From assembly GCA_905479985.1 (NCBI GenBank), contig CAJQOM010000008.1, positions 1 to 64,000 of the forward strand: DNA of 64,000 bases, written 5' to 3'. Position 1 is the stretch's first letter. Each line of letters begins with the position of its first letter. Both the position numbers and the translations under genes were made by a program. Shown here in pieces: positions 2,221-21,388 of this stretch. The notes below the pieces were generated by a model. That model made no database searches and was not told the DNA's origin. It was given only the letters and a program-made list of their open reading frames with translations. Source of the stretch: an uncultured Gammaproteobacteria bacterium (lineage in GTDB: Bacteria > Pseudomonadota > Gammaproteobacteria > Nitrosococcales > Methylophagaceae).

Positions 2221-2345
2221 TATTCACAGTTTAGGGTGTTTTCCGTAGATTTAAGGCGAAAGAAAATAATCTACAGTTGCCTTTTGAAATTAATGGGGAA
2301 GGAATGATATGAGTGAAGAAGAGAACACAGAAAATAGGAGAAAAT

Positions 2346-2735
2346 ATGACTTTTGCTGAATTAGTGACGCTTTCAACAGAAATTCATACCCAAATTTACG
2401 AGCACTGGAGTATGTTTATTAGTTTTCATTTGGCTTTGTTAGGAGGTTTATTTGCCTTTGATCTGAATGTAAGAACGAGTTTTAAGTGGGGTTTTTTACT
2501 ATTTTATTTACTTTTCGCAGGGGTGAATTTTTTTATCAGTCTTAATTTACTGAATCAGGTAGATGCCATTACCCATGATATTCAAGCATTAGCTGGCGAT
2601 AACGTAACTTATTTAGAAACATATTTATTACGCGATAAGCTGCAATTAGCTCAACCCGTTCTTATTGTTGCTCACTTTATATCTGGTTTAATGGTGCTAA
2701 TCGGTGTATTTATTCCAAGTAAAAAATTAGTATAA
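2346..2735 (+). CDS. Small multi-pass membrane protein of unknown function
   Basis: 129 residues from the ATG at 2346, chosen because AGGAG (2336-2340) stands five bases upstream. A GTG at 2313 would add 11 residues. Three hydrophobic helices are visible: about residues 26-42, 50-70 and 106-124. Between helices two and three is a polar stretch (VDAITHDIQALAGDN) likely to be helical. No family recognised. It lies between copies of the repeats, upstream of repeat B copy 2, in the accessory segment next to the IS30 element. Confidence 0.6.
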   Translation: MTFAELVTLSTEIHTQIYEHWSMFISFHLALLGGLFAFDLNVRTSFKWGFLLFYLLFAGVNFFISLNLLNQVDAITHDIQALAGDNVTYLETYLLRDKLQLAQPVLIVAHFISGLMVLIGVFIPSKKLV

Positions 2736-3011
2736 AAAAGAATAAATTCCTGAGAGGATGGATGGGAATTATTCACAGTTTAGGATATTTTCCCGGATCC
2801 CCATGTTGTACTGACGGAGCTATGTAGCCAAATTAGATAAAAAGGGGATCAGTGTTTGAGCGTAGCGAGTTTTAGCCGACTGCCTGAGATAAATAGATAA
2901 TTCGTGAAGCCGTAGGCCAGTACAAGGGGTGGCCTAGGATTGTTAAGGAAATGGCCACGCATTTCCTTAACTCGACCTTAGTCGAAATAAAGCTATTAAA
3001 GAATTGATAAC
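2736..3011. other. Intergenic stretch carrying repeat B copy 2
   Basis: The gap between the small membrane gene and the convergent NAD(P)-binding protein gene is almost completely taken up by repeat B copy 2 and its ATTCACAGTTTAGG flank. I see no gene in it. Confidence 0.7.
2794..2990 (+). repeat. Intergenic repeat B, copy 2
   Basis: Same length and order of parts as 1844-2040. The outer arms (2799-2813 with 2918-2929) and the 11-bp hairpin TTAAGGAAATG/CATTTCCTTAA (2943-2970) are kept exactly; the hairpin loop differs (GCCACG instead of GCCATG). The central hairpin is degraded (GGGGATCA against AGCCGACT) although the loop core GTGTTTGAGCGTAGCG remains. Confidence 0.85.
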
Positions 3012-3749
3012 CTAAATACTGTTTTCAGCTACCTTATTATAAATAACCGGCATTTGCCCTTTCCATTGCTCCCATAAAGAATCATCAGTCACTAACTCAG
3101 CCATAAAACACCCAACATTAATACGACTAGTCTGCCCAGCATCAAAAATAGCACTCCGCGTTGGAGAAGGGTGAAGCTCATAATCACTCACATCATCCAA
3201 ATCAATCAAACCATCAGGCCGAACAGCTGCCCACTCGATACATTTATGATTTTGTCCTATTTCAGTTCGTAAAAAATCAGCCGCTTGTTCATTATCAACA
3301 TGTGGTGGTAGCAATAAACGCAGTAAGCCAATGACTAAATGTTGAGCAAATGAAATAGGTTCAACCAAGTCCCGATTGCGGTTACCGGTGGTATTCATTA
3401 AGACGAGCTTAATAGGCTGAGCCGGGTTGTTAGCTTCAATCGCTTGGCATAAATGTCGTACAGACTCGGTAACGAGTCGTCGAGGCTGACCATAAATACC
3501 TTTAAACGATAATGTATGGCCCAAGCAGGACAGAACGGCATGACAATCAATCAGATGGTTTTGTAGCTCTTTAATGCTCATTTCGGAGATATTGCCAACA
3601 ATTAGCGACAAGTTAGTATGATCCCTGATGTCTTGTGGTAATCGACCTGTTGTCCGAATAACCGCTTTAACGTGTTCACCTCGATCGAGTAACTGAGCCA
3701 GAAGGTGCGCTCCGGTTGCACCGCTCGCACCTACAACTAGAACTGACAT
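3012..3749 (-). CDS. NAD(P)-binding atypical SDR (NmrA/YwnB-like)
   Basis: 245 residues with an N-terminal Rossmann nucleotide-binding motif VVGASGATGAHLL (residues 5-17) and the next strand carrying Arg32, consistent with NADP(H) preference. No YxxxK catalytic pair of classical short-chain dehydrogenases is obvious, which fits the atypical SDR group (NmrA-like or flavin-reductase-like proteins). Substrate unknown. It is transcribed divergently from the glycoside-hydrolase/kinase fusion gene with a 99-base gap, and convergently toward the repeat region. Probably not part of LPS synthesis. Confidence 0.75.
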   Translation of the reverse strand: MSVLVVGASGATGAHLLAQLLDRGEHVKAVIRTTGRLPQDIRDHTNLSLIVGNISEMSIKELQNHLIDCHAVLSCLGHTLSFKGIYGQPRRLVTESVRHLCQAIEANNPAQPIKLVLMNTTGNRNRDLVEPISFAQHLVIGLLRLLLPPHVDNEQAADFLRTEIGQNHKCIEWAAVRPDGLIDLDDVSDYELHPSPTRSAIFDAGQTSRINVGCFMAELVTDDSLWEQWKGQMPVIYNKVAENSI

Positions 3750-3848
3750 TTAAACTCCCATTAATGTTGAAATAACAGAGACATAGAAAAAGTACGTTTT
3801 TTAGCTTTTATCGTCATGGTACACTTTAACCATATATTATAATTAGGC

Positions 3849-6086
3849 TTGGCGTCGACTTTGAACCCCCGTATCCATTATTATTTTCGTTCAGCAAAGA
3901 ACATTTCTCATTCCATCCTTAAATCACGGTTCTGGGCAGTACATTCGCCGCAAATCCAGCCCGGTGTAACGGTCGAAAATGATTTCTTTGGTATCAATAT
4001 CGCACCGGCTGCCGATCCGCTAGTCGACGACTTTATCATCGAACGGTGTCAAGAGTTAGGTCTACAACATGTTCGAATGAATTTCACTTATGATTCATTA
4101 GACGGCCATGCAGAGAGACTGTTACAAAAGGTTATCGCAGCGGACTTTAAAGTCTTATTGGATTTAATCCCACCTTTTGAAGATGCCAAAACCTTTACGA
4201 TGGCAGCACAACAACGTTGGGTTGATTTCTTAAATACCATCGCTGAGAAATATGGCGATAAAGTGATGTGTATTGAGATTGGTTCAACACCGAACCGAGG
4301 CCGTTGGTCTGGGTTTGAGCCCGCGGATTATTTGATTGCATGGCGTATTGCGAATGAGCAATTAAAACCGCTTGGCATCACATTAGCTGGGCCAAATGTC
4401 TCTGACTTTGAACCGTTGTGCAGTATTCAATTGCTGAGTGAAATGCAATTACAAGGTAATGCACCGGATATTTATACCAATAATTTATTTGTAGAGCGGG
4501 TCATTCAACCCGAAGCGTTTGATCATCGTGTATTAGGCAAGGCGATGACCAAAGTTATGAAGCTCAACTTGGTCAAAAAAGCCCGGGTTTTGAAAGCGAT
4601 TGGTCATGATTATGGTGTCGATAACATCATTTGTACCTATAAATGCTGGTCAAGCAAGCGCTTACGTCGTTGGTCGGTGACGCCAGAACGTAAAAAGTCA
4701 GATTACTTGATTCGCTATTTGGTCATTGCAGCCACAACGGGCGCATTAGGCAAGGTTTATTGGGGCCCATTGATTTGTAGTCGAGATGGCTTGATCAATG
4801 ATGGCTCAACAGGTTATCCCGTCATTGATAATGTGACATTTTATAAACAAATTCGCGGTGATATATCGGACTTTGAAATCCGTGAAGCCTTTTATGCCTA
4901 TGCCAATATTATTAAATTACTGTCGGGGGCGACGTGCATTCAAGCGGTGAATGCAGACAAAGGGCTCCATCATTTCATTTTTGATACCAAAGAAGGCAAG
5001 CAACTCCATATTGCGTGGACGACGGATCGAGGCTGTATTGATGCCGAACGACTCTATACGCGGGCACAATTAGATGGAAGCCAAGCAGTTGATGCCTTGG
5101 GTGAAGTAATAGAAGACGAAATACTGAGCATCACTGAACGTCCGATCTTTCTCCAATTTGATCAGCCTGAATCATTAAAACTAAATGACCAGGAAATGGC
5201 TGAGATTGAGCCGCAATCCCAGGGTGCGGTATTCGGCATAATGGATAAAGTGAGGTTTATCTCATGGGCAGAAGGCAAGTGGCGTGGTGCTGTAGCAGCA
5301 AAACCGGGAGAAGATGCCGGAGCAAAGGCGCAAGCCTTATTGCCAGATCAATTGCTAAGCGCGACCCAACTGTCCGTTCACAGAGATCAGCGTAATAAAG
5401 TTTGGAGTATTCAGCACCCATTAGATCAAAATGACACCATTGTTGTAAAAGAAAACCGAGCGCAAGGGATTAAGAAATTTACTTACCGCTTTAAAGCAAG
5501 CAAAGGCCAGCGGCATTGGGATAATGCGTGGGAGATGTTGCGCCGCGGTGTTAAAAGCCCCACCCCAATTGCTTATTTCGAACAAACAGAAAACACCGGT
5601 ATCACCCATAATTATTATGTCTGTGAATATGTTGATGCGGCTTTTTCTGTACGCCAAGCCTTTACAGCATTTGGAGAAGGGCAAGAGAGTTTCAAAGGCT
5701 TTAGCAAAGAAAAAATTATCAAAGCGGTAGCAGATTTCAGTTGCAATATGCACGATGAGAAAATCATTCATCATGATCTGACTGGCGGTAATTTATTAGT
5801 CACAACCGAAAATGATGAGATTAATATCACAGCCATTGATATCGGTAGAGCGTCGATTAACATGAAGGACGGGGTCACTGAGCGCCAACGGTTACTTGAC
5901 TTAATGCGCTGCTGTTATAAATTAAACTGGCCGAATCGTGAATTGTTTATGGATTATTACTTTGTGGCGTATGGCGGGAAGTTTTCTCACCGTTGGAAAA
6001 CATCGCTCAGCTATTATGATTGGAAATTAAGAACTAAGAAAAAGTTAAAACGAATTTTAAAAGGTAAGTGGAAAAAAGCGAAATAG
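3849..6086 (+). CDS. Fusion of glycoside-hydrolase-like barrel and LPS-type kinase
   Basis: 745 residues from a TTG start; the first in-frame ATG lies about 75 codons later and would cut into the conserved part. Residues about 45-400 resemble a clan-A glycoside hydrolase barrel: FFGINIAP near the start, strand/loop IEIGSTPNRG at 141-150. There the usual acid/base NEP is replaced by STP (146-148), so hydrolysis is doubtful. Residues about 510-740 form a kinase of the WaaP/InaA/RIO type: VVKEN lysine, catalytic HHDLTGGN with Asp643, and AIDIGR as metal-binding segment. It probably acts on LPS core heptose or sugar at the cytoplasmic face, judging from its neighbours. The two stop codons of this and the next gene face each other with a two-base gap. 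The assignment of the N-terminal half is an inference from motif appearance. Confidence 0.7.
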   Translation: MASTLNPRIHYYFRSAKNISHSILKSRFWAVHSPQIQPGVTVENDFFGINIAPAADPLVDDFIIERCQELGLQHVRMNFTYDSLDGHAERLLQKVIAADFKVLLDLIPPFEDAKTFTMAAQQRWVDFLNTIAEKYGDKVMCIEIGSTPNRGRWSGFEPADYLIAWRIANEQLKPLGITLAGPNVSDFEPLCSIQLLSEMQLQGNAPDIYTNNLFVERVIQPEAFDHRVLGKAMTKVMKLNLVKKARVLKAIGHDYGVDNIICTYKCWSSKRLRRWSVTPERKKSDYLIRYLVIAATTGALGKVYWGPLICSRDGLINDGSTGYPVIDNVTFYKQIRGDISDFEIREAFYAYANIIKLLSGATCIQAVNADKGLHHFIFDTKEGKQLHIAWTTDRGCIDAERLYTRAQLDGSQAVDALGEVIEDEILSITERPIFLQFDQPESLKLNDQEMAEIEPQSQGAVFGIMDKVRFISWAEGKWRGAVAAKPGEDAGAKAQALLPDQLLSATQLSVHRDQRNKVWSIQHPLDQNDTIVVKENRAQGIKKFTYRFKASKGQRHWDNAWEMLRRGVKSPTPIAYFEQTENTGITHNYYVCEYVDAAFSVRQAFTAFGEGQESFKGFSKEKIIKAVADFSCNMHDEKIIHHDLTGGNLLVTTENDEINITAIDIGRASINMKDGVTERQRLLDLMRCCYKLNWPNRELFMDYYFVAYGGKFSHRWKTSLSYYDWKLRTKKKLKRILKGKWKKAK

Positions 6087-8097: not shown

Positions 8098-8661
8098 TTA
8101 ATTGGTTTCGAGTTGAAGATCTAGTGCTTCACAGAGCCAATGGCCGATAATAATATGACCTTCCTGTACGCGTGCTGTTTCTTGCGAAGGTACTTGGATA
8201 CAGCTATCAGCCTGCGCCAATAATTGACCGCCGGATTGTCCGGTAAAAGCACACGTCCAACAACCTGCTTCCTTAGCGACTTTAAAGCCATTAATGACAT
8301 TATCGCTATTGCCGGATGTTGATAGACCAATCGCAATATCTCCGGGTTTGGCTAAGGCTTCAATTTGGCGATCGAAGATAGTACTAAAGTCGAAATCATT
8401 GCCATGGGCGGTGAGGATAGAAGTATCTGTCGTTAAGGCAATCGCAGCATAGGGCTTGCGGTGTTCTTTATAACGCACAACAAATTCGGCTGCCAGATGT
8501 TGGGCATCTGAGGCACTGCCGCCATTACCGAAAAAAAGCACTTTATTGCCTTTGGCTAAAGCTTGACTCACTTGCGACACTAAAGCGTCAATTTGGGGCG
8601 TTAAGGCAAATAAGCCTTCGACCATCGTTTGGTGGCGAATAACGGTAGCTTTAAATGACAC
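8098..8661 (-). CDS. gmhA: Phosphoheptose isomerase
   Basis: 187 residues, close to the usual about 192 of GmhA. It converts sedoheptulose 7-phosphate to D-glycero-D-manno-heptose 7-phosphate, the first step of ADP-heptose synthesis for the LPS inner core. The SIS-domain phosphate/metal region GNGGSASDAQHLAAE (residues 46-60) and the C-terminal TARVQEGHIIIGHWLCE contain the His/Glu and Gln/His residues that bind zinc in the family. Other SIS sugar isomerases (DiaA-like) are alternatives, but the location beside waaP, waaG and waaF favours GmhA. It is the first gene of the minus-strand operon and diverges from the triple-kinase gene with 47 bases between. Confidence 0.85.
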   Translation of the reverse strand: MSFKATVIRHQTMVEGLFALTPQIDALVSQVSQALAKGNKVLFFGNGGSASDAQHLAAEFVVRYKEHRKPYAAIALTTDTSILTAHGNDFDFSTIFDRQIEALAKPGDIAIGLSTSGNSDNVINGFKVAKEAGCWTCAFTGQSGGQLLAQADSCIQVPSQETARVQEGHIIIGHWLCEALDLQLETN

Positions 8662-8708: not shown

Positions 8709-11012
8709 ATGATTATACAATATAAGTTATCGCCCAAGCCCGCGCTATCAAAATTTAAAAGAACAGAGGCATTACCCTTAAAAATGACGTTATCGGATAT
8801 CTACCTTAGATTAGAGCTAGGCAAGCTATGGCGTGGCCGAGATGTTTTCGCGACAGTAGAGCAGCTTGAAGGTGAGGTTTTTCGGCATAAAGAAGGCCGA
8901 AGAACCTTACGGTTTCAATTAGCAGGAAAAAGTTACTTTCTCAAATACCACCGCGGTATTGGCTGGTTAGAAATCATTAAAAACCTCTTGCAATTGAGAG
9001 CGCCGATTATCAGTGCAAAAAATGAGTGGCAAGCTGTCAAGTTTTTAGAAAAACACGGCATCGAAACCATGACGTTAGCGGGTTATGGCGAAAAAGGCTT
9101 AAACCCGGCAGCCAAACAATCTTTTGTGATTACGGATGATTTAAGCGATACCGTCGATTTAGAATTACTGGGTGAGCAATGGCATGATCGACCACCAACA
9201 TTTGCGGCCAAAAAAGCCTTAATCGAAAAACTGGCGAGCATCAGCAAAAACATGCACGAGAACGGCATGAATCATCGTGATTTTTATCTTGTCCATTTTT
9301 TACTGGATAAAAGTTTTGTTGAACACAATACATTCACCCCTGACACACCACTATTCTTAATTGATTTACACCGGGCATTAATCAACGAAGGAAAGCCGGT
9401 TAAACCGCGCTGGTTAATTAAGGATATCGGCAGTCTCTATTTTTCAGCGATGGATGTGCCGTTAACACGGCGCGATATTTTCCGGTTTATGAAAATTTAT
9501 TCTGGCAAGTCACTACGCGACACACTGTCATCACATGGTTTGTTTTGGAAAAAAGTCAGGCAACGGGCATTAACATTACGTAATGCAGATAATGCCGTTG
9601 TCATCGAGAGTTTAAATCCAATCCACAGCTTTTTAAAAGGCAAGACATTACCGATTCCATTCAAGATTGACATGGCAGGGCAATCCTATACCTGTACTAA
9701 AATCTTACGCTTGTTGCCGAAAAAGAGGCTGGTGGTCGAAGCCCAGTCTGAACAGCAGCATGCCGTCATTAAGCTATTTTCAGCAGCACAAAAAGGCCGC
9801 CGTGAAATAGATCGAGAACATGATGGTCACCGCATAGCCAAGGGAGCAGGCGTTAACCTACCTGAGCTATTATTTGCAGCCGGCAATCAAACGGGCTGTC
9901 TGAGTATTGGCTACCAATATATTGAGAATGCTAGGACGCTGTTGTCTGTTTCAGCAGAACAAAGACAAGCGCAATTGCCGGCATTATTTGAGATCGTCGC
10001 TAAACTACATATTTATGGTGCTTATCAAAGTGACATTCACTTAGATAACTTTTTGCTGGCTGATAACAAGCTTTATCTCATCGATCTAGGGTCGGTAAAA
10101 CAACAAGAGGTTGGACAGGGACTCAGCCCAAGAAAGAGCCTGCAAAACTTAGCCCATTTGGTATCTGAATTTAGTCCTGAAGAGCAAGCCACATTAACAC
10201 CGCATATTGAACACTATTACCACCAACGTCGGAGTGTCTATAACGACACAGAGAAAGGTTATTTTGCCAAATATTGTAAAAAAGCGTGGCAACGAAGAAA
10301 GCGGAACTACCTGAAAAAGCAATTTAGAAATTGTACTATGACACGCTACCAGTCAAGCCTGTCACAGCAAAGTGCTTTTCGCAGTGATTTTTTAAAAGGC
10401 GAAACAGCAGATTTTATCAACAACATTGAGCAACTGATGGCAGCAGGCCAAGCCTTAAAAGAAGGCAATTCTGCTACCGTGGTTAAAGCAGAAATTGATG
10501 GTAAGCAGATTGTTATCAAGCGGTACAATATGAAAAGTACCGGACATTTTTTGCGTCGTTGCTTACGCCCAAGCCGGGCCGCGGTATCATGGCGTAATGC
10601 CAATCTATTAGAGTTTATAGGTCTGCCTACCACTAAACCATTGGGATTTATTGAACAAAGGCGGCTTGGATTACGCCATCAAGCCTATTTCATTACTGAA
10701 TATACACCAGCAGAAGAGCTATCTGCTGCGTATGCTGAGCGTGAGCCGACAGAATCAGAATTAGAACAGCTTAAAACAATTTTTATGACGTTAGAACGTG
10801 AACAAATTAGCCACGGTGATCTAAAAGCCAGTAATTTTTTAGTTAACGCGCAAGGTGACATCTCACTGATTGATTTAGATGCTATGAATGGGGCACATCA
10901 CTGCAGCCAGACTTTTAAGAAAGCATTCGAGGAAGATAAAAAAAGATTTATGGCTAATTGGCAAGATAACCAGTCACACCACTTTAGCTTTATAGAGCAA
11001 CATCAGGGTTAA
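8709..11012 (+). CDS. waaP: LPS core kinase with three kinase domains (WaaP plus two)
   Basis: 767 residues; single-domain WaaP is about 265. Residues about 26-290 are a clear WaaP (heptose I kinase): LWRGRDVF, GEVFRHKEGRRTLRF, YFLKYHRGIGW, NHRDFYLVHF with the catalytic Asp191. Residues about 300-530 hold a second kinase with SDIHLDNFLL (Asp442) and LIDLGS. Residues about 555-760 hold a third with SHGDLKASNFLV (Asp704) and LIDLDAM. In Pseudomonas aeruginosa separate neighbouring genes (waaP, wapP, wapQ) encode core kinases, so this looks like a fused equivalent; that correspondence is inferred. All three sites keep the catalytic Asp and the metal-binding Asp. The protein should phosphorylate inner-core heptoses in the cytoplasm. 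waaG follows after five bases. Confidence 0.9.
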   Translation: MIIQYKLSPKPALSKFKRTEALPLKMTLSDIYLRLELGKLWRGRDVFATVEQLEGEVFRHKEGRRTLRFQLAGKSYFLKYHRGIGWLEIIKNLLQLRAPIISAKNEWQAVKFLEKHGIETMTLAGYGEKGLNPAAKQSFVITDDLSDTVDLELLGEQWHDRPPTFAAKKALIEKLASISKNMHENGMNHRDFYLVHFLLDKSFVEHNTFTPDTPLFLIDLHRALINEGKPVKPRWLIKDIGSLYFSAMDVPLTRRDIFRFMKIYSGKSLRDTLSSHGLFWKKVRQRALTLRNADNAVVIESLNPIHSFLKGKTLPIPFKIDMAGQSYTCTKILRLLPKKRLVVEAQSEQQHAVIKLFSAAQKGRREIDREHDGHRIAKGAGVNLPELLFAAGNQTGCLSIGYQYIENARTLLSVSAEQRQAQLPALFEIVAKLHIYGAYQSDIHLDNFLLADNKLYLIDLGSVKQQEVGQGLSPRKSLQNLAHLVSEFSPEEQATLTPHIEHYYHQRRSVYNDTEKGYFAKYCKKAWQRRKRNYLKKQFRNCTMTRYQSSLSQQSAFRSDFLKGETADFINNIEQLMAAGQALKEGNSATVVKAEIDGKQIVIKRYNMKSTGHFLRRCLRPSRAAVSWRNANLLEFIGLPTTKPLGFIEQRRLGLRHQAYFITEYTPAEELSAAYAEREPTESELEQLKTIFMTLEREQISHGDLKASNFLVNAQGDISLIDLDAMNGAHHCSQTFKKAFEEDKKRFMANWQDNQSHHFSFIEQHQG

Positions 11013-11017
11013 TGTAG

Positions 11018-12175
11018 ATGAAACTGGCTGTGTGTTTATATAAATTATTCCCGTTCGGCGGTTTAGCGCGAGATTGTGTTCGTATTTTAAGTTTATGCTA
11101 TGCCAAAGGGGCACAGATTGATGTGTTCGTGATGGAGTGCGAAGGCGAGATACCGGAAGGCTTTAACGTCGAAGTGCTTAAGCCAAAAGGCCTCACAAAT
11201 CACAGCAAAGTCGCTAACTACATTGAACAAGTTAAACCCAAAATAGCAAAGGGAAATTACGACTTAGTTATTGGTTTTAATAAAATGCCAGGGCTGGATC
11301 TCTATTACGCGGCTGATCCTTGTTATATCGATAAGGTAAAAAAACAGTCAAACTACCCCGTGATGAAATTTAGTGGTCGGGTAAAGTTCTATTGTAAAAA
11401 CGAACGTGCGGTATTTGGAGCCGAGAGCCAAACTGTTGGCCTAATGATCTCTGATATAGAGCGTGATAAGTTTAAACAACATTACGAGACACCGGAACAT
11501 CGTCTTGTGATGTTACCACCGGGTATTGATCCCAATCGGAAACGCAGTGATGACTGGCAAATTAGACGTGCTCGGTTTAGAACAGAGTTTCAAGTCAAAG
11601 ATGACGATATTGTCATGTTAATGGTCGGCAGTGGTTTTAAGCGAAAAGGCGTTGATCGGGTTATTTTGGGCCTAGCTGCATTATCGCCACCGTTACGTGA
11701 GAAAACGAAGTTATTTGTCTTAGGTGAAGATACCATCCCAGTTTTCGAGCGTTTGGCTAAACAGCACGGTGTGGCCGAGCAAGTGACCTTTTTTGGCGGC
11801 CGAAGTGATGTGCCAGAGTTTTTGCTAGGCACGGATCTATTCTTACATCCAGCCAGAAAAGAGAATACCGGAACGGTTATTTTAGAAGCCTTAGTAGCTG
11901 GTTTACCCGCTTTTGTTTCCGGTGCATGTGGCTATGCTGGCCATATTGTAAAATCAGGTGCCGGCTTGGTATCATCAGAACCCTTTGACCAGCAGGCGTT
12001 TAATCAACAATTAGCGAGTATGCTGGATAAAGATAAGTTAAATCAATGGTCCGAACAAGCGTTGCTTTATGCTGACACCGAAGATTTGTATAGTATGCCT
12101 CAGAAAGTGGCTAGAATTATTGAGACAATGGTGAAAGTAAAATCATTGAATTATGAAAAGCAGGGAAAAGAATGA
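11018..12175 (+). CDS. waaG: LPS core glucosyltransferase I, GT4 family
   Basis: 385 residues. GT-B fold enzyme adding the first outer-core hexose to heptose II. The donor/acceptor loop FPFGGLARDCVRI (residues 11-23) and the Glu-x7-Glu motif in KENTGTVILEAL are those of WaaG/RfaG. The N-terminal half contains the LPGxD-like region NKMPGLDLYYAADPCY typical for WaaG. No signal peptide; peripheral at the cytoplasmic membrane. It begins five bases after the triple kinase gene and overlaps galE by four bases, so kinase, waaG, galE and yrbL-like genes form one operon. Confidence 0.93.
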   Translation: MKLAVCLYKLFPFGGLARDCVRILSLCYAKGAQIDVFVMECEGEIPEGFNVEVLKPKGLTNHSKVANYIEQVKPKIAKGNYDLVIGFNKMPGLDLYYAADPCYIDKVKKQSNYPVMKFSGRVKFYCKNERAVFGAESQTVGLMISDIERDKFKQHYETPEHRLVMLPPGIDPNRKRSDDWQIRRARFRTEFQVKDDDIVMLMVGSGFKRKGVDRVILGLAALSPPLREKTKLFVLGEDTIPVFERLAKQHGVAEQVTFFGGRSDVPEFLLGTDLFLHPARKENTGTVILEALVAGLPAFVSGACGYAGHIVKSGAGLVSSEPFDQQAFNQQLASMLDKDKLNQWSEQALLYADTEDLYSMPQKVARIIETMVKVKSLNYEKQGKE

Positions 12176-13203
12176 GTAAAACGGTTTTAGTAGCAGGTGG
12201 GGCGGGCTATATCGGCAGCCATATATGTATAGAGTTGCTTGATGCTGATTTCAAGATTATTGTGGTTGATAATTTATCGAATAGTGATAAAAAATCACTT
12301 GAACGGGTAACACAAATTTCTGGCAAACAATTTGAGTTTTATCAGATAGATTTGAGAGATGAAGGGGCATTAAATGACGTCTTCATAAACCATAAAATTG
12401 ATGCTGTTATCCACTTAGCAGGCTTGAAAGCTGTTGGGGAGTCATGTGAACAGCCATTGATGTATTATCAAAATAACATCAATGCCAGCTTAGTTTTATT
12501 TGAACTGATGCAAAAGCACGGTGTGACGGATCTTGTCTTTAGTTCATCGGCAACAGTTTACGGCGATCCTGCTACTGTGCCCATCGATGAAAACTTCCCC
12601 TTAACGGCAACAAATCCCTATGGTCGGACTAAACTGATGATTGAGGAAATGTTAAAAGATATTGCGGCAGCAACGTCTTTTAATGTTGTATTACTACGTT
12701 ATTTCAATCCTGCCGGGGCTCATGAAAGTGGCCTCATAGGCGAAGATCCTAATGGTATTCCAAACAATTTATTACCTTATGTATCTCAAGTCGCTATTGG
12801 TAAAAGAGACAAAGTATCAGTATTTGGCGGAGACTACGCTACTCCAGATGGGACGGGCGTAAGAGACTACATTCATGTTGTCGATTTAGCAAAAGGGCAT
12901 GTTAAAGCATTACAAACGATGAAGCAGCCAAAAGATAATAAAGGAGTCTGCAAAGTTTATAACTTAGGTACTGGCCAAGGCTATAGTGTATTGGAAGCGA
13001 TATCAGCATTTGAGCAAGCATGCGGACATGAAATTGCTTATGAAATAGTGGATAGGCGACCTGGCGATATCGCCGAATGTTATGCCGAGCCGACTTTAGC
13101 AAATCAAGAATTGGGCTGGCAAGCAGAGAAATCTATAAGTGACATGATGAAAGATGCCTGGCGCTGGCAAACACAAAACCCCAATGGTTACCAAGATGAT
13201 TGA
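12172..13203 (+). CDS. galE: UDP-glucose 4-epimerase
   Basis: 343 residues, the usual GalE length. It interconverts UDP-glucose and UDP-galactose with bound NAD. Visible are the Rossmann motif GGAGYIGSHI (residues 9-18), FSSSATVYGDP with the catalytic Ser/Thr, NPYGRTK with the Tyr/Lys pair, and LLRYFNPAGAHESG. The ATG overlaps the waaG stop (ATGA). Its place between waaG and a kinase gene suggests it supplies UDP-galactose for the LPS core. The C-terminus overlaps the next gene by eight bases. Confidence 0.95.
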   Translation: MSKTVLVAGGAGYIGSHICIELLDADFKIIVVDNLSNSDKKSLERVTQISGKQFEFYQIDLRDEGALNDVFINHKIDAVIHLAGLKAVGESCEQPLMYYQNNINASLVLFELMQKHGVTDLVFSSSATVYGDPATVPIDENFPLTATNPYGRTKLMIEEMLKDIAAATSFNVVLLRYFNPAGAHESGLIGEDPNGIPNNLLPYVSQVAIGKRDKVSVFGGDYATPDGTGVRDYIHVVDLAKGHVKALQTMKQPKDNKGVCKVYNLGTGQGYSVLEAISAFEQACGHEIAYEIVDRRPGDIAECYAEPTLANQELGWQAEKSISDMMKDAWRWQTQNPNGYQDD

Positions 13204-13807
13204 ACTCAAGCCAGAAGCGATGGTTGGCAAGGGCTTACACCGAGAGTGTTATGTCCATCCTGATAATCCCAACCGTTGTATTAAGGTTGTTGTGTTGCGT
13301 GGCGAAGAAGAGACCCGTCGGGAACAAGCGTATTATAAGTTTCTACAAAAACGCCAGATTACCTGGGAAATGTTACCGCAGTTTTATGGGGTAGAGCCGA
13401 CTTCAATCGGCCCCGGCGCCGTTTTTGATTTAGTTAGGGATGCCAATGGCGAAGTAGGAAAAACGTTTGAGTATTACTTCGAATCTGCCGACCTGACAGC
13501 ACAAAATATAGAAGGCCTTATAAGCGCATTACAAGCGTTAAAAACCTATTTATTCAGTCAAAACATCATCACCATGTCAATTAAGCCGAAAAATATTATT
13601 TACCAAAGACAAGATGAACACACTGGAACTGCTGTTATTATCGATAATATTGGTAACTCAGATGCCATCCCGTTAGCGAGTTATTGCCGCACTTTTGGTA
13701 AGATCAAAATGACGCGAAAATGGCATAAGTTTATTGCCTTACTGCAAAAAGACTATCCTGAAAACAGTTTGTTACAAGCGCAATTAGCCAATAAGCTAGT
13801 CAAATAA
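13196..13807 (+). CDS. yrbL: YrbL-like kinase-fold protein
   Basis: About 203 residues from the ATG at 13196, which overlaps the galE stop; ATGs at 13184 and 13154 are alternatives. It matches the PhoP regulatory network protein YrbL family: GKGLHRECYVHP near the N-terminus, CIKVVV with the ATP-binding lysine, YGVEPTSIGPGAVFDLV in the middle. In place of an HRD loop there is ITMSIKPKNIIY followed by AVIIDNIGNSD. Kinase activity for YrbL proteins is not established. Here it ends the waaP-waaG-galE operon and is followed by a strong stem-loop. Confidence 0.85.
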   Translation: MIELKPEAMVGKGLHRECYVHPDNPNRCIKVVVLRGEEETRREQAYYKFLQKRQITWEMLPQFYGVEPTSIGPGAVFDLVRDANGEVGKTFEYYFESADLTAQNIEGLISALQALKTYLFSQNIITMSIKPKNIIYQRQDEHTGTAVIIDNIGNSDAIPLASYCRTFGKIKMTRKWHKFIALLQKDYPENSLLQAQLANKLVK

Positions 13808-15409: not shown

Positions 15410-17140
15410 CTAATTTGAGTTTTTAGTCACTAATATATCTTCCATAACCAAATATTCCAGATCAGAGCCAAAAAACATATTCAAGGCATCAGTTGGACTA
15501 CAGACCATGGGTTCGCCACGACGGTTCAGCGATGTATTCAGTACAACACCATTACCAGAGAGCTTTTCCATTTCCTGTAGTAAGGCGTAATAGCGAGGAT
15601 TAGTGGCTTCAGTCACAATTTGGGCGCGCGCAGTGCCATCTTCATGAACTACTTCAGGTATGCGTGACTTCCATTCTTCCGCAACATCAAAAGTAAAAGT
15701 CATATAAGGGCTAGGATGTTCGGTTTGCAATATCTCAGATGCCACAGTATCCAATATACTTGGGCAGAATGGGCGCCAGCGCTCACGATATTTAATTTGA
15801 GCATTAATACGGTCAGCAACACCAGAATGATTAGGGCTACCTAAAATGCTGCGGTTTCCTAAAGCACGAGGGCCAAACTCCATTTTGCCTTGGAACCAAG
15901 AAACGGGATTACCATCATGAAGGATTTCAGCTGTTTGTTTGCAGACATCGTCTAGCTTAGTCCAGGTGACATCTTGCTCATGGGCATCACAAGCAGCGAT
16001 GCATTCGTCGGTCGTATAGGATGGGCCTAAATAGACATGTTCCATTTTCTCGACAGGAACGCCCGCCATATGTGATGCATAACTGGCGGCACCAATAGCA
16101 GTACCTGCATCGCTTGCTGCAGGTTGAACAAACAGTTCTTTAACGCCATCCATCGCGATAATGCGTTGGTTAAGTTTGACATTGAGTGCGACGCCACCGG
16201 CAAAACACACTTTACCGGTTTCGCGAATAATATCGCCAAGATGGTACTCAATTAAGTGCAGCGCTGTTTTTTCTAATAAGTCTTGAATGCTGGCGGCATA
16301 ATCAATATAAGGGTCATCAATTTCATCACCAGATCGCATAGGACCGAGCCATTCCAACAGTTTTTTGCTGAAGAAGTAACCCTTGCCATCCTTTTTATAG
16401 CGTCTTGCGCCTAAGGTGTTAACAAGCTCAGTATTCACTTTAAATTCGCCATCACCAAATTCAATGAGTTGAGAAAAGTCAAAACGTGTGGGATCGCCGT
16501 AAGGTGCCATCCCCATCACTTTGAACTCGCCATCAAGCATTTCAAAGCCAAGAAATTCCGTCAGCGCGCCGTACATGCCACCGAGCGAATCTGGATCATA
16601 AAACTCTTTAATTTTATGGATTTGACCATTCTCGCCATAGCCAAAAAAGGTCGTGGCATATTCACCTTTACCATCAATACCGATAATAGCCGTTTTTTCT
16701 TTAAAACCACTTAAATGATAAGCACTACTGGCATGGGCTAAATGATGCTCGACGGGCACAAATTTAACACGATCGGCACCAATACCCAGATCATCGAGTA
16801 ACTTCATCACACTTTCATGATTGCGCTTATAGCGGCGGTTACCATTAAAGAGTGCTGTCAAACCGCGGTCAGGCGCGTACCAATAGCGTTTAGCGTAGTG
16901 CCAGCGGGCAGGAGATTCGAGACCAATTTCAGAATAGGGAAAAGCAACGATATCAATGTCTTTCGGCGTAATCCCGGCCTGTTTCATACAGAATTGCGTA
17001 GCATGATAAGCCATACGGCCTTTAGCATGTTTATCGCGAAGGAAGCGTTCTTCTTCGGCAGCGGCAATTAATTTTCCATCAATATAAAGTGCTGCTGAAG
17101 CATCGTGGTTTACAGCACCAGATAAGCCTAATACGATCAT
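15410..17140 (-). CDS. Carbamoyltransferase, NodU/CmcH family
   Basis: 576 residues, normal for the family. These enzymes transfer carbamoyl from carbamoyl phosphate to a hydroxyl of a sugar or other acceptor. The N-terminal Kae1-like domain shows HDASAAL, EHHLAHASSAYHLSGF and IIGIDGKGEY. The C-terminal part carries the signature MEFGPRALGNRSILG and the later NTSLNRRGEPMV. In Pseudomonas aeruginosa a homologous gene in the core LPS cluster (wapO) carbamoylates heptose II, and the neighbourhood of waaF and LPS kinases suggests the same role here; this is an inference. The next gene upstream (InaA-type kinase) ends about 70 bases away. Confidence 0.9.
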   Translation of the reverse strand: MIVLGLSGAVNHDASAALYIDGKLIAAAEEERFLRDKHAKGRMAYHATQFCMKQAGITPKDIDIVAFPYSEIGLESPARWHYAKRYWYAPDRGLTALFNGNRRYKRNHESVMKLLDDLGIGADRVKFVPVEHHLAHASSAYHLSGFKEKTAIIGIDGKGEYATTFFGYGENGQIHKIKEFYDPDSLGGMYGALTEFLGFEMLDGEFKVMGMAPYGDPTRFDFSQLIEFGDGEFKVNTELVNTLGARRYKKDGKGYFFSKKLLEWLGPMRSGDEIDDPYIDYAASIQDLLEKTALHLIEYHLGDIIRETGKVCFAGGVALNVKLNQRIIAMDGVKELFVQPAASDAGTAIGAASYASHMAGVPVEKMEHVYLGPSYTTDECIAACDAHEQDVTWTKLDDVCKQTAEILHDGNPVSWFQGKMEFGPRALGNRSILGSPNHSGVADRINAQIKYRERWRPFCPSILDTVASEILQTEHPSPYMTFTFDVAEEWKSRIPEVVHEDGTARAQIVTEATNPRYYALLQEMEKLSGNGVVLNTSLNRRGEPMVCSPTDALNMFFGSDLEYLVMEDILVTKNSN

Positions 17141-17211: not shown

Positions 17212-17988
17212 CTATTTTGATTTGCTCAGAACACGATCCTGAATTTGATACCAAAGCTTTTTAGATTTTGATGAAAGCCGAGACTCATTGACATAAGCCT
17301 TGAAGAAAGTGACCTGTTCTTTCGTCGTCCAGTCTAAGGTATGGCGCCGTAAAGTGCCCAAATCCCTAAGGATTGCCGTGTTTTTAAATAGGCGCCGTTT
17401 CGCCTTTTCCAAGTCAATGATTTTGATATCCCAGCTATCACCGACAGGCTTAGCAAAAATATGCTTAGGGTAAAGGCTATTATGCTGGAGGTGATGCTGA
17501 TGCATTTGATTGAGCACCGTCGCGGTCGCTTTTAATAAAGCTTGTCGATCTGACCAGCTTTTAACTACCTTAGAAGAGGAAGTCGGTAGTAATACATCAA
17601 GGGGAAAATAGCCTTCAAGATCTTGAGTCGCAATAATCGCCTGACGGTTGCCATTATAAGATCGCGTGCCAAAATAGACTAACTCGAGCGTCGGAATTTG
17701 ATAGCGGTGAAAAAGTTGGATGTTATCGTATTCTTTTTGAAAAGTAGCAATGCCTGAAATAGGGTGAAGCCAAGTACGACTCATGTGATTTTCTTGGCGC
17801 TTGATAAAAATAAAAACAGGTGTGTCGTTGAGTTGTTCGAGGGGTATTTTTATAACTCCACTCCAGCCACCACGTCGAATATTAGGTTCCTCGAACCAAT
17901 CAGTTTTAAGGGACCAAAAAGCATTGAACTCTGATAAGTTATTTGCCTTTAATGTGAGTTCCCATCCGGTTAGAAATTGTCCAATCAT
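17212..17988 (-). CDS. InaA/WapQ-type LPS kinase
   Basis: 258 residues, the usual length of single-domain InaA/WapQ proteins. Characteristic are RRGGWSGV (residues 38-45), FIKRQENH with the ATP lysine, the degenerate catalytic loop HHLQHNSLYPKHIF instead of HRDxxxxN, and IIDLEKAKRR. In this family the HN.LYPKHIF loop is normal, so it is not necessarily inactive. It most likely phosphorylates a core sugar, possibly a heptose. It starts two bases after the stop of the membrane glycosyltransferase-like gene, so it belongs to the waaF-GT-kinase(-carbamoyltransferase) minus-strand operon. Confidence 0.85.
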   Translation of the reverse strand: MIGQFLTGWELTLKANNLSEFNAFWSLKTDWFEEPNIRRGGWSGVIKIPLEQLNDTPVFIFIKRQENHMSRTWLHPISGIATFQKEYDNIQLFHRYQIPTLELVYFGTRSYNGNRQAIIATQDLEGYFPLDVLLPTSSSKVVKSWSDRQALLKATATVLNQMHQHHLQHNSLYPKHIFAKPVGDSWDIKIIDLEKAKRRLFKNTAILRDLGTLRRHTLDWTTKEQVTFFKAYVNESRLSSKSKKLWYQIQDRVLSKSK

Positions 17989-17990
17989 TC

Positions 17991-19547
17991 TTAATGATGT
18001 TTTACTTTATAAATAGATGCACTATCATTAAGCTGCTCATTAGAGTTTGAGTGAATACGCTTGATAGGAAGTGCTTCCAGAAAAGTGATAAGCTCAGAGT
18101 TCCGCTCCTTTTCAACGACAAGAATGTAATCATAGTTACGATAGTCATTAGCTCTTTTTTCTGAACAAAAGCCGGAGGTATACGGGTTTTTATAAGCATG
18201 CTCACTAGTAAAGTCATTAGGCTCTAATATTGGTTTAACACAAAGGGTTATAGGTACTTTTTCTCTTTCAAAATAGTAGAAAGTAAATTCATCATCGGTT
18301 ATTACTCGACTGTCAATCGGCAAGTTATGAGCAGCCCATAACGCGGTGTCTCGGATATAAGTTTTAGAGCTTGAAAGTGTAGCAGTATCGGCCACGCTGT
18401 AGAATAGCGCTAACCCAATTAAAGTTAAGGGCAATAATTTTCTATTTAACCAGAACTGTTCAATATTGTGACAAAATCGTGGAATGACGATTAATAAGAG
18501 CCCGATTAGGGCTAAGACGGCATAACGGCCTGAAACAAAATATTGTTTAAATAAGAAAATTGTTAAGATTAAAATATTGAGTGAGAAGAAATACAGCAGT
18601 AGTGATTGGTGGCGAGATGTAATAACGTTACCTAATCGAGTGGTAAGGTAAATAATAAGGTAACTTACTGAAAATAATTTCAAAACTTTATAAGTTAGCA
18701 TTGCCAAGAGACCTGCGACAATCATAAGTGGTGCATAGTCTTTAGAGTACTTATTTAGGATATGAGTTTTTATAATTTCACTGTTAGTGATTAATTTTTC
18801 AACATATTCATTGAAATTAAGGTAGGTCGATGGTATTGAGGCAAGTTTGGCAAAAGCTGTGACTATATCTGTTTGGCTAAGCACAAATACAACGACTATT
18901 ATTGAGCTAATGATCAATAAATAATAGGTTTGAAATAATTGTTTAAAGGCGGCAGGCAGCGGGTGGACGAAGAGTAAAAAAGCAGGCAGACCCAATAAAA
19001 TAACACTACCTTCGATACGGAATAAAATTGCAACCAGCATCAAGGCCTGCCAGAGCGAAGCGGCGCAATAGGAAGGAGACTGTAGAAACTTCATAAATTG
19101 ATACAATGCGAGACTACAAAAAGCCCAATACCCAACATCTCGGATAATAAAGTCGCGGTATTCATTAATGGGGGTAAAGCCAAGAATCAGTATCGAAGCA
19201 ATAATAAGCTGGCGTTGCGAGGAAACAATTAAGCTACTGATTAGTACAAGGGCATCAGTGAGTAACAAGAATAAAATGCTATTAGTAACAAAGGCACTTG
19301 TTTCAATGGAAAAGGGGGTAATTTGAGATACCCAAGCCACAAGGATAGAAAATGCTGGCCAATCAAAAATAGTGCGGGTAGCTGCTAAACCACCGGACAA
19401 GTATGCTTCGACCATCTGAAGGTACATAACGCCATCACGATTAAGAATGTCGTCAAAATAAACCGCTTGAAGCGAGAGCAATAAGCTTACTAGAACAGTA
19501 AAAAGTCGAATGCGAGTGATATTTAGATTAGATAGTTGAATATCCAT
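17991..19547 (-). CDS. Polytopic membrane protein, GT-C glycosyltransferase-like
   Basis: 518 residues with about ten hydrophobic helices, and a soluble C-terminal part from about residue 400. The first periplasmic loop has FDDILNRDGVMYLQMVEAY, where acidic residues just after the first helix match the catalytic position of PMT/ArnT-type GT-C enzymes that use polyprenyl-phosphate sugars. The specific sugar is unknown. Its position directly after waaF (one-base gap) and before an LPS kinase suggests it adds a residue to LPS core or lipid A in the periplasm. Base use is more A+T-rich than its neighbours, as often for such genes. Confidence 0.7.
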   Translation of the reverse strand: MDIQLSNLNITRIRLFTVLVSLLLSLQAVYFDDILNRDGVMYLQMVEAYLSGGLAATRTIFDWPAFSILVAWVSQITPFSIETSAFVTNSILFLLLTDALVLISSLIVSSQRQLIIASILILGFTPINEYRDFIIRDVGYWAFCSLALYQFMKFLQSPSYCAASLWQALMLVAILFRIEGSVILLGLPAFLLFVHPLPAAFKQLFQTYYLLIISSIIVVVFVLSQTDIVTAFAKLASIPSTYLNFNEYVEKLITNSEIIKTHILNKYSKDYAPLMIVAGLLAMLTYKVLKLFSVSYLIIYLTTRLGNVITSRHQSLLLYFFSLNILILTIFLFKQYFVSGRYAVLALIGLLLIVIPRFCHNIEQFWLNRKLLPLTLIGLALFYSVADTATLSSSKTYIRDTALWAAHNLPIDSRVITDDEFTFYYFEREKVPITLCVKPILEPNDFTSEHAYKNPYTSGFCSEKRANDYRNYDYILVVEKERNSELITFLEALPIKRIHSNSNEQLNDSASIYKVKHH

Positions 19548-19548
19548 T

Positions 19549-20589
19549 TTAGTATTGGGTGTTCTGAGATTGAGAAATTTGAATGGATGTTAGCACATTC
19601 TTACTGCCTATACCCTGCATACAATTATGATGTTGTTCAGGGCAAGTTCGCTGAAAACAAGGGCCACATTCAACCTCTATTTGGAGGGTATGTGCATTAT
19701 CAGACAATGGCGGTGTGAAGTTAGGTGAAGTTGGTCCATAAATAGCGACCAATGGTTTTTGCAATGCAGCGGCAATATGCATTAATCCTGAATCATTTGA
19801 AATGACGGCATCAGCTGTGGACAATAAGTCGATGGCATCTTGCAGTTGTGTTAGACCGCACAGGTTAATGAAGTTGTCAGCATGTCTATTATCGGTCTTG
19901 TTTTCTATTTCATCAGCGATGGTGTTATCAGCTTCAGAACCGAGCACGAGCACTTGCCAGCCTTCACCAATTAAAGTCGTTGTGACCTCAGCATAGGATT
20001 GAGCGGGCCATTGCTTAGCGGGTCCAAATTCAGCACCCGGACAGAGAATTAATCTTTTTTGTCCTGAGGCCAAAGCAGGCACGGCAAAACTAGCCGGATT
20101 TGCGACCATTTTCGGAATAGGGTAGCTCGGGGCAATCTGTGATTGTTCAGAGGGGCAAGCCAAGGAAACAAAACGCTGCACCATCATAGGTAAAGCGTCT
20201 TTGTCTAGCGTACGAATGTCATTCAACAAGCCGTAACGCGCTTCCCCTTTCCAGCCAGTCCGTACAGGAATATTGGCAAAGAATGGAATTAACGCCGATT
20301 TCCAAGAATTAGGTAACACAATAGCTTGGTCATATTGTGCAGCCTGAAGCTGCTTGCCCAGAGCTCGACGCATTTTAAAGCCAAAAACACCGTGGCTAAT
20401 TGGCATTGGAATAGCTTCATTGACTTCAGGCATGCGGTCGAGCAACGGCTTAGTCCAAGCTAGTGCCAAGACATCAATAATCGAATTGGGATGTTCTGCT
20501 TTGAGCGCCATAAATAGCGACTGTGCCATGACCATATCGCCGATCCATGAAGGACCAATGATCAGTATTTTATAGGGCTTAACCGACAT
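19549..20589 (-). CDS. waaF: LPS heptosyltransferase II
   Basis: 346 residues from the ATG at 20589; an upstream ATG at 20643 would add 18 residues and overlap the ZIP gene, and is less likely because WaaF begins with KILIIGPSWIGDMVMAQSL. It transfers heptose from ADP-heptose to the first heptose of the inner core (GT9 family). Visible are GPSWIGD, LPNSWKSAL, IPVRTGWKGEARYGLLND, CPGAEFGPAKQWP and SNDSGLMHIAAAL. The C-terminal GPCFQRTCPEQHHNCM cysteine-rich tail is also typical. First gene of the minus-strand LPS operon. Confidence 0.93.
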   Translation of the reverse strand: MSVKPYKILIIGPSWIGDMVMAQSLFMALKAEHPNSIIDVLALAWTKPLLDRMPEVNEAIPMPISHGVFGFKMRRALGKQLQAAQYDQAIVLPNSWKSALIPFFANIPVRTGWKGEARYGLLNDIRTLDKDALPMMVQRFVSLACPSEQSQIAPSYPIPKMVANPASFAVPALASGQKRLILCPGAEFGPAKQWPAQSYAEVTTTLIGEGWQVLVLGSEADNTIADEIENKTDNRHADNFINLCGLTQLQDAIDLLSTADAVISNDSGLMHIAAALQKPLVAIYGPTSPNFTPPLSDNAHTLQIEVECGPCFQRTCPEQHHNCMQGIGSKNVLTSIQISQSQNTQY

Positions 20590-20593
20590 GCGC

Positions 20594-21388
20594 TTAATGC
20601 AAAGTACTATGTGTAATGAAAATAAACACAGTACCGGCAGCAATTAAGAGTACTTGTTGCAACGTTTCAGAGGGTTTAACTTTATTGTGTAAGCCTGGAA
20701 TTAAATCAGCGACAGCGATATAAATAAAGCTAGAGGCTGCGATAATGAGAATATAAGGCAAGACATGCTGCATATCACTGAGAGCAAAATAAGCTAATAA
20801 GGCACCGACAACGGTGCCGAGACTAGCCAAGATATTGTAAAAGAGTGCTTTTTTACGGTTAAAGCCGCTGTGAAGTAAGATAACAAAGTCACCCAGCTCT
20901 TGAGGGATTTCATGAGCGGCAATGGCCAATGCCGTCACAATACCCAAGTGAATATCGGTCATAAAAGCAGCAGCAATGAGAATACCGTCGACAAAATTAT
21001 GGATCGTATCGCCGATTAAGATTAAGGTGCCCGCGGCTTGTTTGCGATTGTTCGTATGCTGAGGATTATCCTCTGGTAAATGACCGTCGCAATGATCATG
21101 GTGACAATGACGCCACAGCACCAGCTTTTCTAACAGAAAAAAAGTGAGCAAGCCTAATAACAAGGTGAGTCCGACATTGTGGGCGTCAACAGGGTATTCA
21201 TGCTCAAGCGCATGAGGCAAGAGTCCAAGAAAAGAAGCACCAAGTAATGCGCCGACAGCAAAGCTGACGAGATGAGGGACGGCGACCGTGCGTGAGTTTT
21301 CTGATAACAGTAGAAAACTAGAGGCCAAAATAACGCTGGCTATACCGCCTAATAGGCTAAAACCGATAATCCAGAGCAATAAATCCAT
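20594..21388 (-). CDS. ZIP-family metal transporter
   Basis: 264 residues, about eight hydrophobic helices. The central pair of helices carries the metal motifs IGDTIHNFVDG and AAHEIPQELGDF, which form the binuclear zinc/iron site of ZIP importers. A histidine-rich cytoplasmic loop (WRHCHHDHCDGH, about residues 92-103) is typical too. It imports divalent metals such as zinc, iron or manganese across the inner membrane; the exact metal cannot be read from sequence. Only four bases separate it from waaF, so co-transcription is likely although functions differ. Confidence 0.9.
   Translation of the reverse strand: MDLLLWIIGFSLLGGIASVILASSFLLLSENSRTVAVPHLVSFAVGALLGASFLGLLPHALEHEYPVDAHNVGLTLLLGLLTFFLLEKLVLWRHCHHDHCDGHLPEDNPQHTNNRKQAAGTLILIGDTIHNFVDGILIAAAFMTDIHLGIVTALAIAAHEIPQELGDFVILLHSGFNRKKALFYNILASLGTVVGALLAYFALSDMQHVLPYILIIAASSFIYIAVADLIPGLHNKVKPSETLQQVLLIAAGTVFIFITHSTLH

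Follow-up and report, generated by a model that had tools for sequence, protein, structure and literature searches.

The window, that is, the whole 64,000-nucleotide stretch of DNA analysed here, from an uncultured gammaproteobacterium, carries an LPS-core gene cluster that includes a gene for a protein with three kinase domains (Table 1). Its divergent neighbour codes for what we take, from sequence recognition, to be a GmhA-like isomerase. The carbamoyltransferase gene is located ~4 kb from the fused kinase gene.

Table 1. Features of the fused kinase gene and the surrounding LPS-core cluster in the window.
Feature	Coordinates	Strand	Remarks
GmhA-like sedoheptulose-7-phosphate isomerase, divergent neighbour	8098..8661	-	adjoins waaP across the family
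Fused kinase gene	8784..11012	+	742 aa from probable start ATG 8784 (ORF from 8709)
Domain 1, WaaP/RfaP LPS heptose(I) kinase (aa 1-265)	8784..9578	+	NF011703, 6dfl
Fusion linker (aa 266-277)	9579..9614	+	no in-frame ATG/GTG/TTG before codon 297
Domain 2, Bud32/Rio/WaaP-like kinase (about aa 278-504)	9615..10295	+	K330, D417, H419, N422, D434
Domain 3, Kdo/WaaP-family kinase (about aa 531-742)	10374..11009	+	K559, G561, K579, H677-G678-D679, K681, N684, D697
Glycosyltransferase group 1 (WaaG/WapG-like), downstream, same cluster	11018..12175	+	PF00534; adjoins waaP in relatives
galE-like UDP-glucose 4-epimerase	12172..13203	+	TIGR01179, 448 bits
YrbL-like kinase-fold protein	13154..13807	+	PF10707, 143 bits
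Carbamoyltransferase, WapO-like	15410..17140	-	PF02543/PF16861; adjoins tandem kinase in Pseudomonas-type clusters
Separate WapQ/InaA-like LPS kinase	17212..17988	-	PF06293, 136 bits; 32-43% identity to the wapQ-position gene of Pseudomonas-type clusters
waaF-like heptosyltransferase II	19549..20643	-	TIGR02195, 451 bits

The frame from 8709 to 11012 on the forward strand is open over 767 codons and contains no internal stops, either between the domains or elsewhere. The initial annotation, which had described it as a full WaaP domain followed by two more kinase domains, was confirmed on this point: a single frame encodes a WaaP heptose kinase and, behind it, two other kinase domains. In the relative L007 (85% identical; 86% over the 742 aa), stops in the same frame closely precede the codon that corresponds to ATG 8784, so the start at 8709 probably lies 75 bases too far upstream. 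The homologous ATG is also the ORF start in most fused relatives, and the true start is probably ATG 8784, which yields a product of 742 aa; residue numbers given here are counted from it. The catalytic aspartates had been placed at 191, 442, and 704 of the longer ORF, and these positions are exact. In our numbering they become D166, D417, and D679, and downstream of each lies another conserved aspartate (D194, D434, and D697, respectively), in agreement with the metal-binding residue that had been noted in every domain.

Domain 1 matched the NCBIfam WaaP/RfaP equivalog NF011703 with 353 bits (cut-off, 170) and the Pfam family PF06293 with 142.9 bits (gathering cut-off, 21.3), and was aligned nearly over its whole length with the P. 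aeruginosa WaaP structure (PDB 6dfl; E-value of 2e-71). The catalytic residues of the P. aeruginosa enzyme are K51, E78, H161-R162-D163, H168, which is the histidine for the second Mg, and D188-L189-H190 (PMC6147952). All of them have counterparts in domain 1 (K54, E81, H164-R165-D166, H171, and D194-L195-H196), and these were invariant in 62/62 WaaP sequences. The alignment extends through most of the C-terminal subdomain II, the acyl-ACP-binding part of WaaP with a basic surface; several basic positions are kept there, but Gly and Ile stand in place of R233 and K224. The assignment of domain 1 rests on sequence, since a full-length AlphaFold model built from a five-row alignment gave poor confidence in this part (pLDDT of 30-45). 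WaaP acts in the cytosol, where it phosphorylates heptose I, a step apparently required for later core phosphorylation (PMC6147952); by analogy, we infer that domain 1 also phosphorylates heptose I. Unlike known WaaP, a single-domain protein of ~260-270 aa, the window protein has ~475 more residues, which comprise two kinase domains.

When the segments were searched separately against kinase profiles, domain 3 behaved as domain 1 did and scored above the PF06293 cut-off of 21.3 on its own (45.7 bits), while domain 2 alone remained below it (16.2 bits) and was recognized as a kinase through a profile-profile comparison with WaaP (hhalign, E-value of 3.5e-14). In a predicted model of domains 2-3 (mean pLDDT of 70.6), the fold over domain 2 matched PRPK/Bud32 with a Z-score of 16.7 and WaaP (6dfl) with 14.4, the best structural neighbours being PRPK/Bud32 and Rio1. 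Profile comparison and predicted fold together thus identify domain 2 as a kinase. The residues listed in Table 1 for domains 2 and 3 were invariant in 44/44 tandem kinases, and the idea that either domain is a pseudokinase was rejected because this set includes the catalytic residues. On this sequence evidence, all three domains would be expected to be active. The best NCBIfam match of domain 3 was the Kdo kinase KdkA, below the cut-off; an identification as KdkA was discarded, as the NF002475 score was 41 bits against a cut-off of 142.

Domains 2 and 3 could be aligned end to end with the product of a single gene, a tandem kinase of ~470-490 aa elsewhere, and 34 separate tandem proteins matched domain 2 and then domain 3, in that order. 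In members of the family, WaaP (~270 aa) and the tandem kinase (~470 aa) are usually encoded by two neighbouring genes, the tandem kinase directly downstream, and the gap was -38 to +7 bases in the split relatives for which it was measured. Domains 2 and 3 are 33-63% identical to the product that family members encode immediately downstream of waaP. In five more distant genomes (L086-L090), the order is waaF, waaC, a wapG-like glycosyltransferase gene, waaP, the wapP-position gene, a WapQ/InaA-like gene (present in two copies in L088), and the tandem kinase; a carbamoyltransferase gene then follows in three of the five stretches. The same order is known from PA5012 to PA5005 of P. aeruginosa (PMC8005017), where the tandem kinase occupies the place of PA5006. 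Proteins at the PA5006 position (470-490 aa) are 26-32% identical to domain 2 and 35-41% identical to domain 3; PA5006 (~490 aa) is likened here by its cluster position, the sequences compared being those of Pseudomonas-type clusters. PA5006 has been described as a putative kinase only; in two-hybrid assays it self-associated and bound the membrane protein PA2576 (PMC8707732). Domains 2 and 3 thus correspond to one ancestral gene product, a known but uncharacterised tandem kinase, which in the window version has no start of its own and forms the C-terminal part of a WaaP protein. Since this tandem gene existed beforehand, the event joined two genes, not three. The initial annotation had likened the protein to a fusion of the three separate, adjacent kinases of Pseudomonas: the three kinase domains with intact catalytic sets were upheld, and their derivation from three Pseudomonas genes was not.

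The host genus is one group of small-genome Gammaproteobacteria. Among its 29 genomes, eight (G000, G003, G010, G011, G012, G016, G018, and G022) had the fused form, eight had the split form, and 13 gave no match. The seven other species with the same fusion have products without internal stops that are 61-86% identical to the window protein. The fused sequences of the genus form one clade in both the tandem-kinase tree (94/80) and the WaaP tree (0.992), pointing to a single origin of the fusion inside the genus. Two more triple-kinase proteins, that of G196 (727 aa) and that of G403 (805 aa), each known from one genome, fall on other branches of the tandem-kinase tree, whose starred branches require the fused state to have changed at least twice. 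The tree positions suggest that the fusion probably arose independently in these two distant lineages. It was not found in other species near G196 and G403 among the few family members examined. As to the taxonomic spread of the triple fusion, about which the initial annotation had asked, a class-wide draw of 369 genomes contained it only in three members of the genus and in G196 and G403.

The genomes without any WaaP or tandem-kinase match are G001, G002, G004, G006, G007, G009, G019-G021, G024-G026, and G028, several of them ~99% complete. These genomes seem to have lost inner-core phosphorylation by the WaaP/tandem-kinase route, or to have replaced it; as they make up 13 of 29, the pair is dispensable in part of the genus.

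In L014, L015, and L016, both genes lie in one frame, separated by no more than one or two stop codons plus, at most, a single additional codon. As little but a stop separates the genes in these relatives, loss of the stop codon between waaP and the in-frame downstream gene is the simplest route, and probably the actual one, by which the fusion arose. Other joins that involve WaaP were also observed. WaaP followed by a single domain-3-like kinase (460-554 aa) is encoded in L030 (745-2244), L091 (1962-3344), L092 (1794-3377), L093 (1898-3469), and L094 (1836-3500), apparently on several independent branches. A WaaG-like glycosyltransferase fused to WaaP (635-717 aa) is encoded in L055 (352-2259), L062 (1140-3293), L063 (337-2427), L064 (325-2430), and L071 (1468-3426). 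The view that WaaP is always a single-domain enzyme does not hold in light of these proteins. They resemble the window protein in that WaaP is joined to an LPS-core enzyme encoded beside it, and differ in having one extra kinase only, or a glycosyltransferase in front of WaaP, and in occurring in different lineages. In the open-access literature that was searched, which lacks most subscription journals, no WaaP multi-kinase fusion is described. The window fusion is a new single-chain arrangement of known families, with a clear evolutionary route.

The length of the linker is stable across the fused species. Because the linker of the window protein has no in-frame start, domains 2-3 are unlikely to be made separately. 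Internal re-initiation that would produce a separate tandem kinase was considered and rejected: the first in-frame start does not come before codon 297, and relatives have no conserved in-frame start in the linker region.

The integrity of the outer membrane depends on inner-core phosphates, and P. aeruginosa cannot live without WaaP. The fused product is most likely a multi-site LPS inner-core kinase, in keeping with its glycosyltransferase, carbamoyltransferase, waaF-like, and WapQ-like neighbours. The explanation that we prefer, and consider fairly probable as a whole, is that the waaP stop was lost and a same-frame, PA5006-type tandem kinase gene was joined to it, so that a single polypeptide now carries three separate kinase active sites. 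Acting on the cytoplasmic side, domain 1 would phosphorylate heptose I of the nascent lipid A-core; domains 2 and 3 would then, most likely, phosphorylate one or two other inner-core positions of the same molecule, with tethering keeping the substrate at one site. The coupling of core phosphorylations by the fused domains, as first proposed for this gene, is plausible. Since independent fusions of this pair have apparently occurred more than once, WaaP and the tandem kinase are likely to cooperate as separate proteins too; fusion is not needed for activity, because WaaP works unfused in most relatives. A natural fusion that apparently recurs in unrelated lineages constitutes independent evidence that WaaP acts with the uncharacterised tandem kinase, and it offers a single construct for testing where, and in which order, phosphates are added. 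A more far-reaching version, in which the protein is a single-chain LPS phosphorylation machine that uses its three sites in sequence on one lipid A-core molecule and the recurrent joins reflect a general complex of WaaP and the tandem kinase in Gammaproteobacteria, is tentative and on balance rather doubtful. If true, it would provide the first functional assignment for the PA5006 family.

The strongest competitor of cooperative, multi-site phosphorylation is a neutral fusion, in which co-transcribed genes simply lost a stop and the linked protein does the work of two separate proteins, with no coupling. We give it somewhat less than an even chance. Such a join would be mutationally easy, given the short distances between the genes in split relatives and the three relatives that are about one stop codon away from it, but the fused state has been kept in eight species at the divergence given above, with a linker of stable length, and this join, or one like it, has turned up in unrelated lineages as well.

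Another reading, which we regard as unlikely, accepts only one of domains 2 and 3 as an LPS kinase; the other (domain 2, most likely) would be Bud32/Rio-like and, as a regulator or protein kinase, control WaaP or the assembly. Domain 2 is divergent, and its predicted fold is as close to Bud32/Rio protein kinases as to sugar kinases; its PF06293 score below the cut-off and its closest structural neighbours agree with such a role, and the existence of proteins in which WaaP is joined to a domain-3-like kinase only indicates that domain 2 can be missing. Against this, the catalytic Lys, Asp, and Asn and the metal-binding Asp of domain 2 are invariant in all 44 tandem kinases, and the structural resemblance does not discriminate, because the Rio family is also the nearest structural relative of WaaP (PMC6147952).

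That the three domains are the Pseudomonas WaaP, WapP, and WapQ joined together is very improbable: all these kinases belong to one superfamily, and a WapP-position protein weakly matches domain 3 (29% identity, E-value of 3e-9) and domain 1, but domains 2 and 3 both resemble the tandem gene far more, clusters that contain this gene have wapP- and wapQ-position genes as well, and the window itself has a separate WapQ-like gene, so that synteny contradicts the assignment. An assembly or frameshift artefact of a metagenome-derived genome has a negligible likelihood, for although the relatives of stated origin are MAGs, they already refute it, with an uninterrupted fusion common to eight species and purifying selection throughout (dN/dS between the window and its nearest fused relative of 0.02-0.06 per domain and 0.08 in the linker).

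Several additional genes were observed in and around these clusters. In L099 (4685-5476) and L103 (5720-6520), which are split-gene relatives, an additional WaaP-like kinase of ~265 aa is encoded beside galE and/or yrbL; it was not seen in the window cluster. A 518-aa protein without a Pfam or NCBIfam match is encoded on the reverse strand at 17991-19547 of the window, inside the LPS-core cluster, and a distant relative of it (26% identity) is found at 7942-9438 of L095, near another triple-kinase fusion. Positions 3849-6086 of the forward strand of the window code for another large protein (745 aa), with a C-terminal Kdo/WaaP kinase domain (residues 515-698); the ~500 residues at its N-terminus had no match in Pfam or NCBIfam. 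L103 encodes a 44%-identical copy at 2247-4475.
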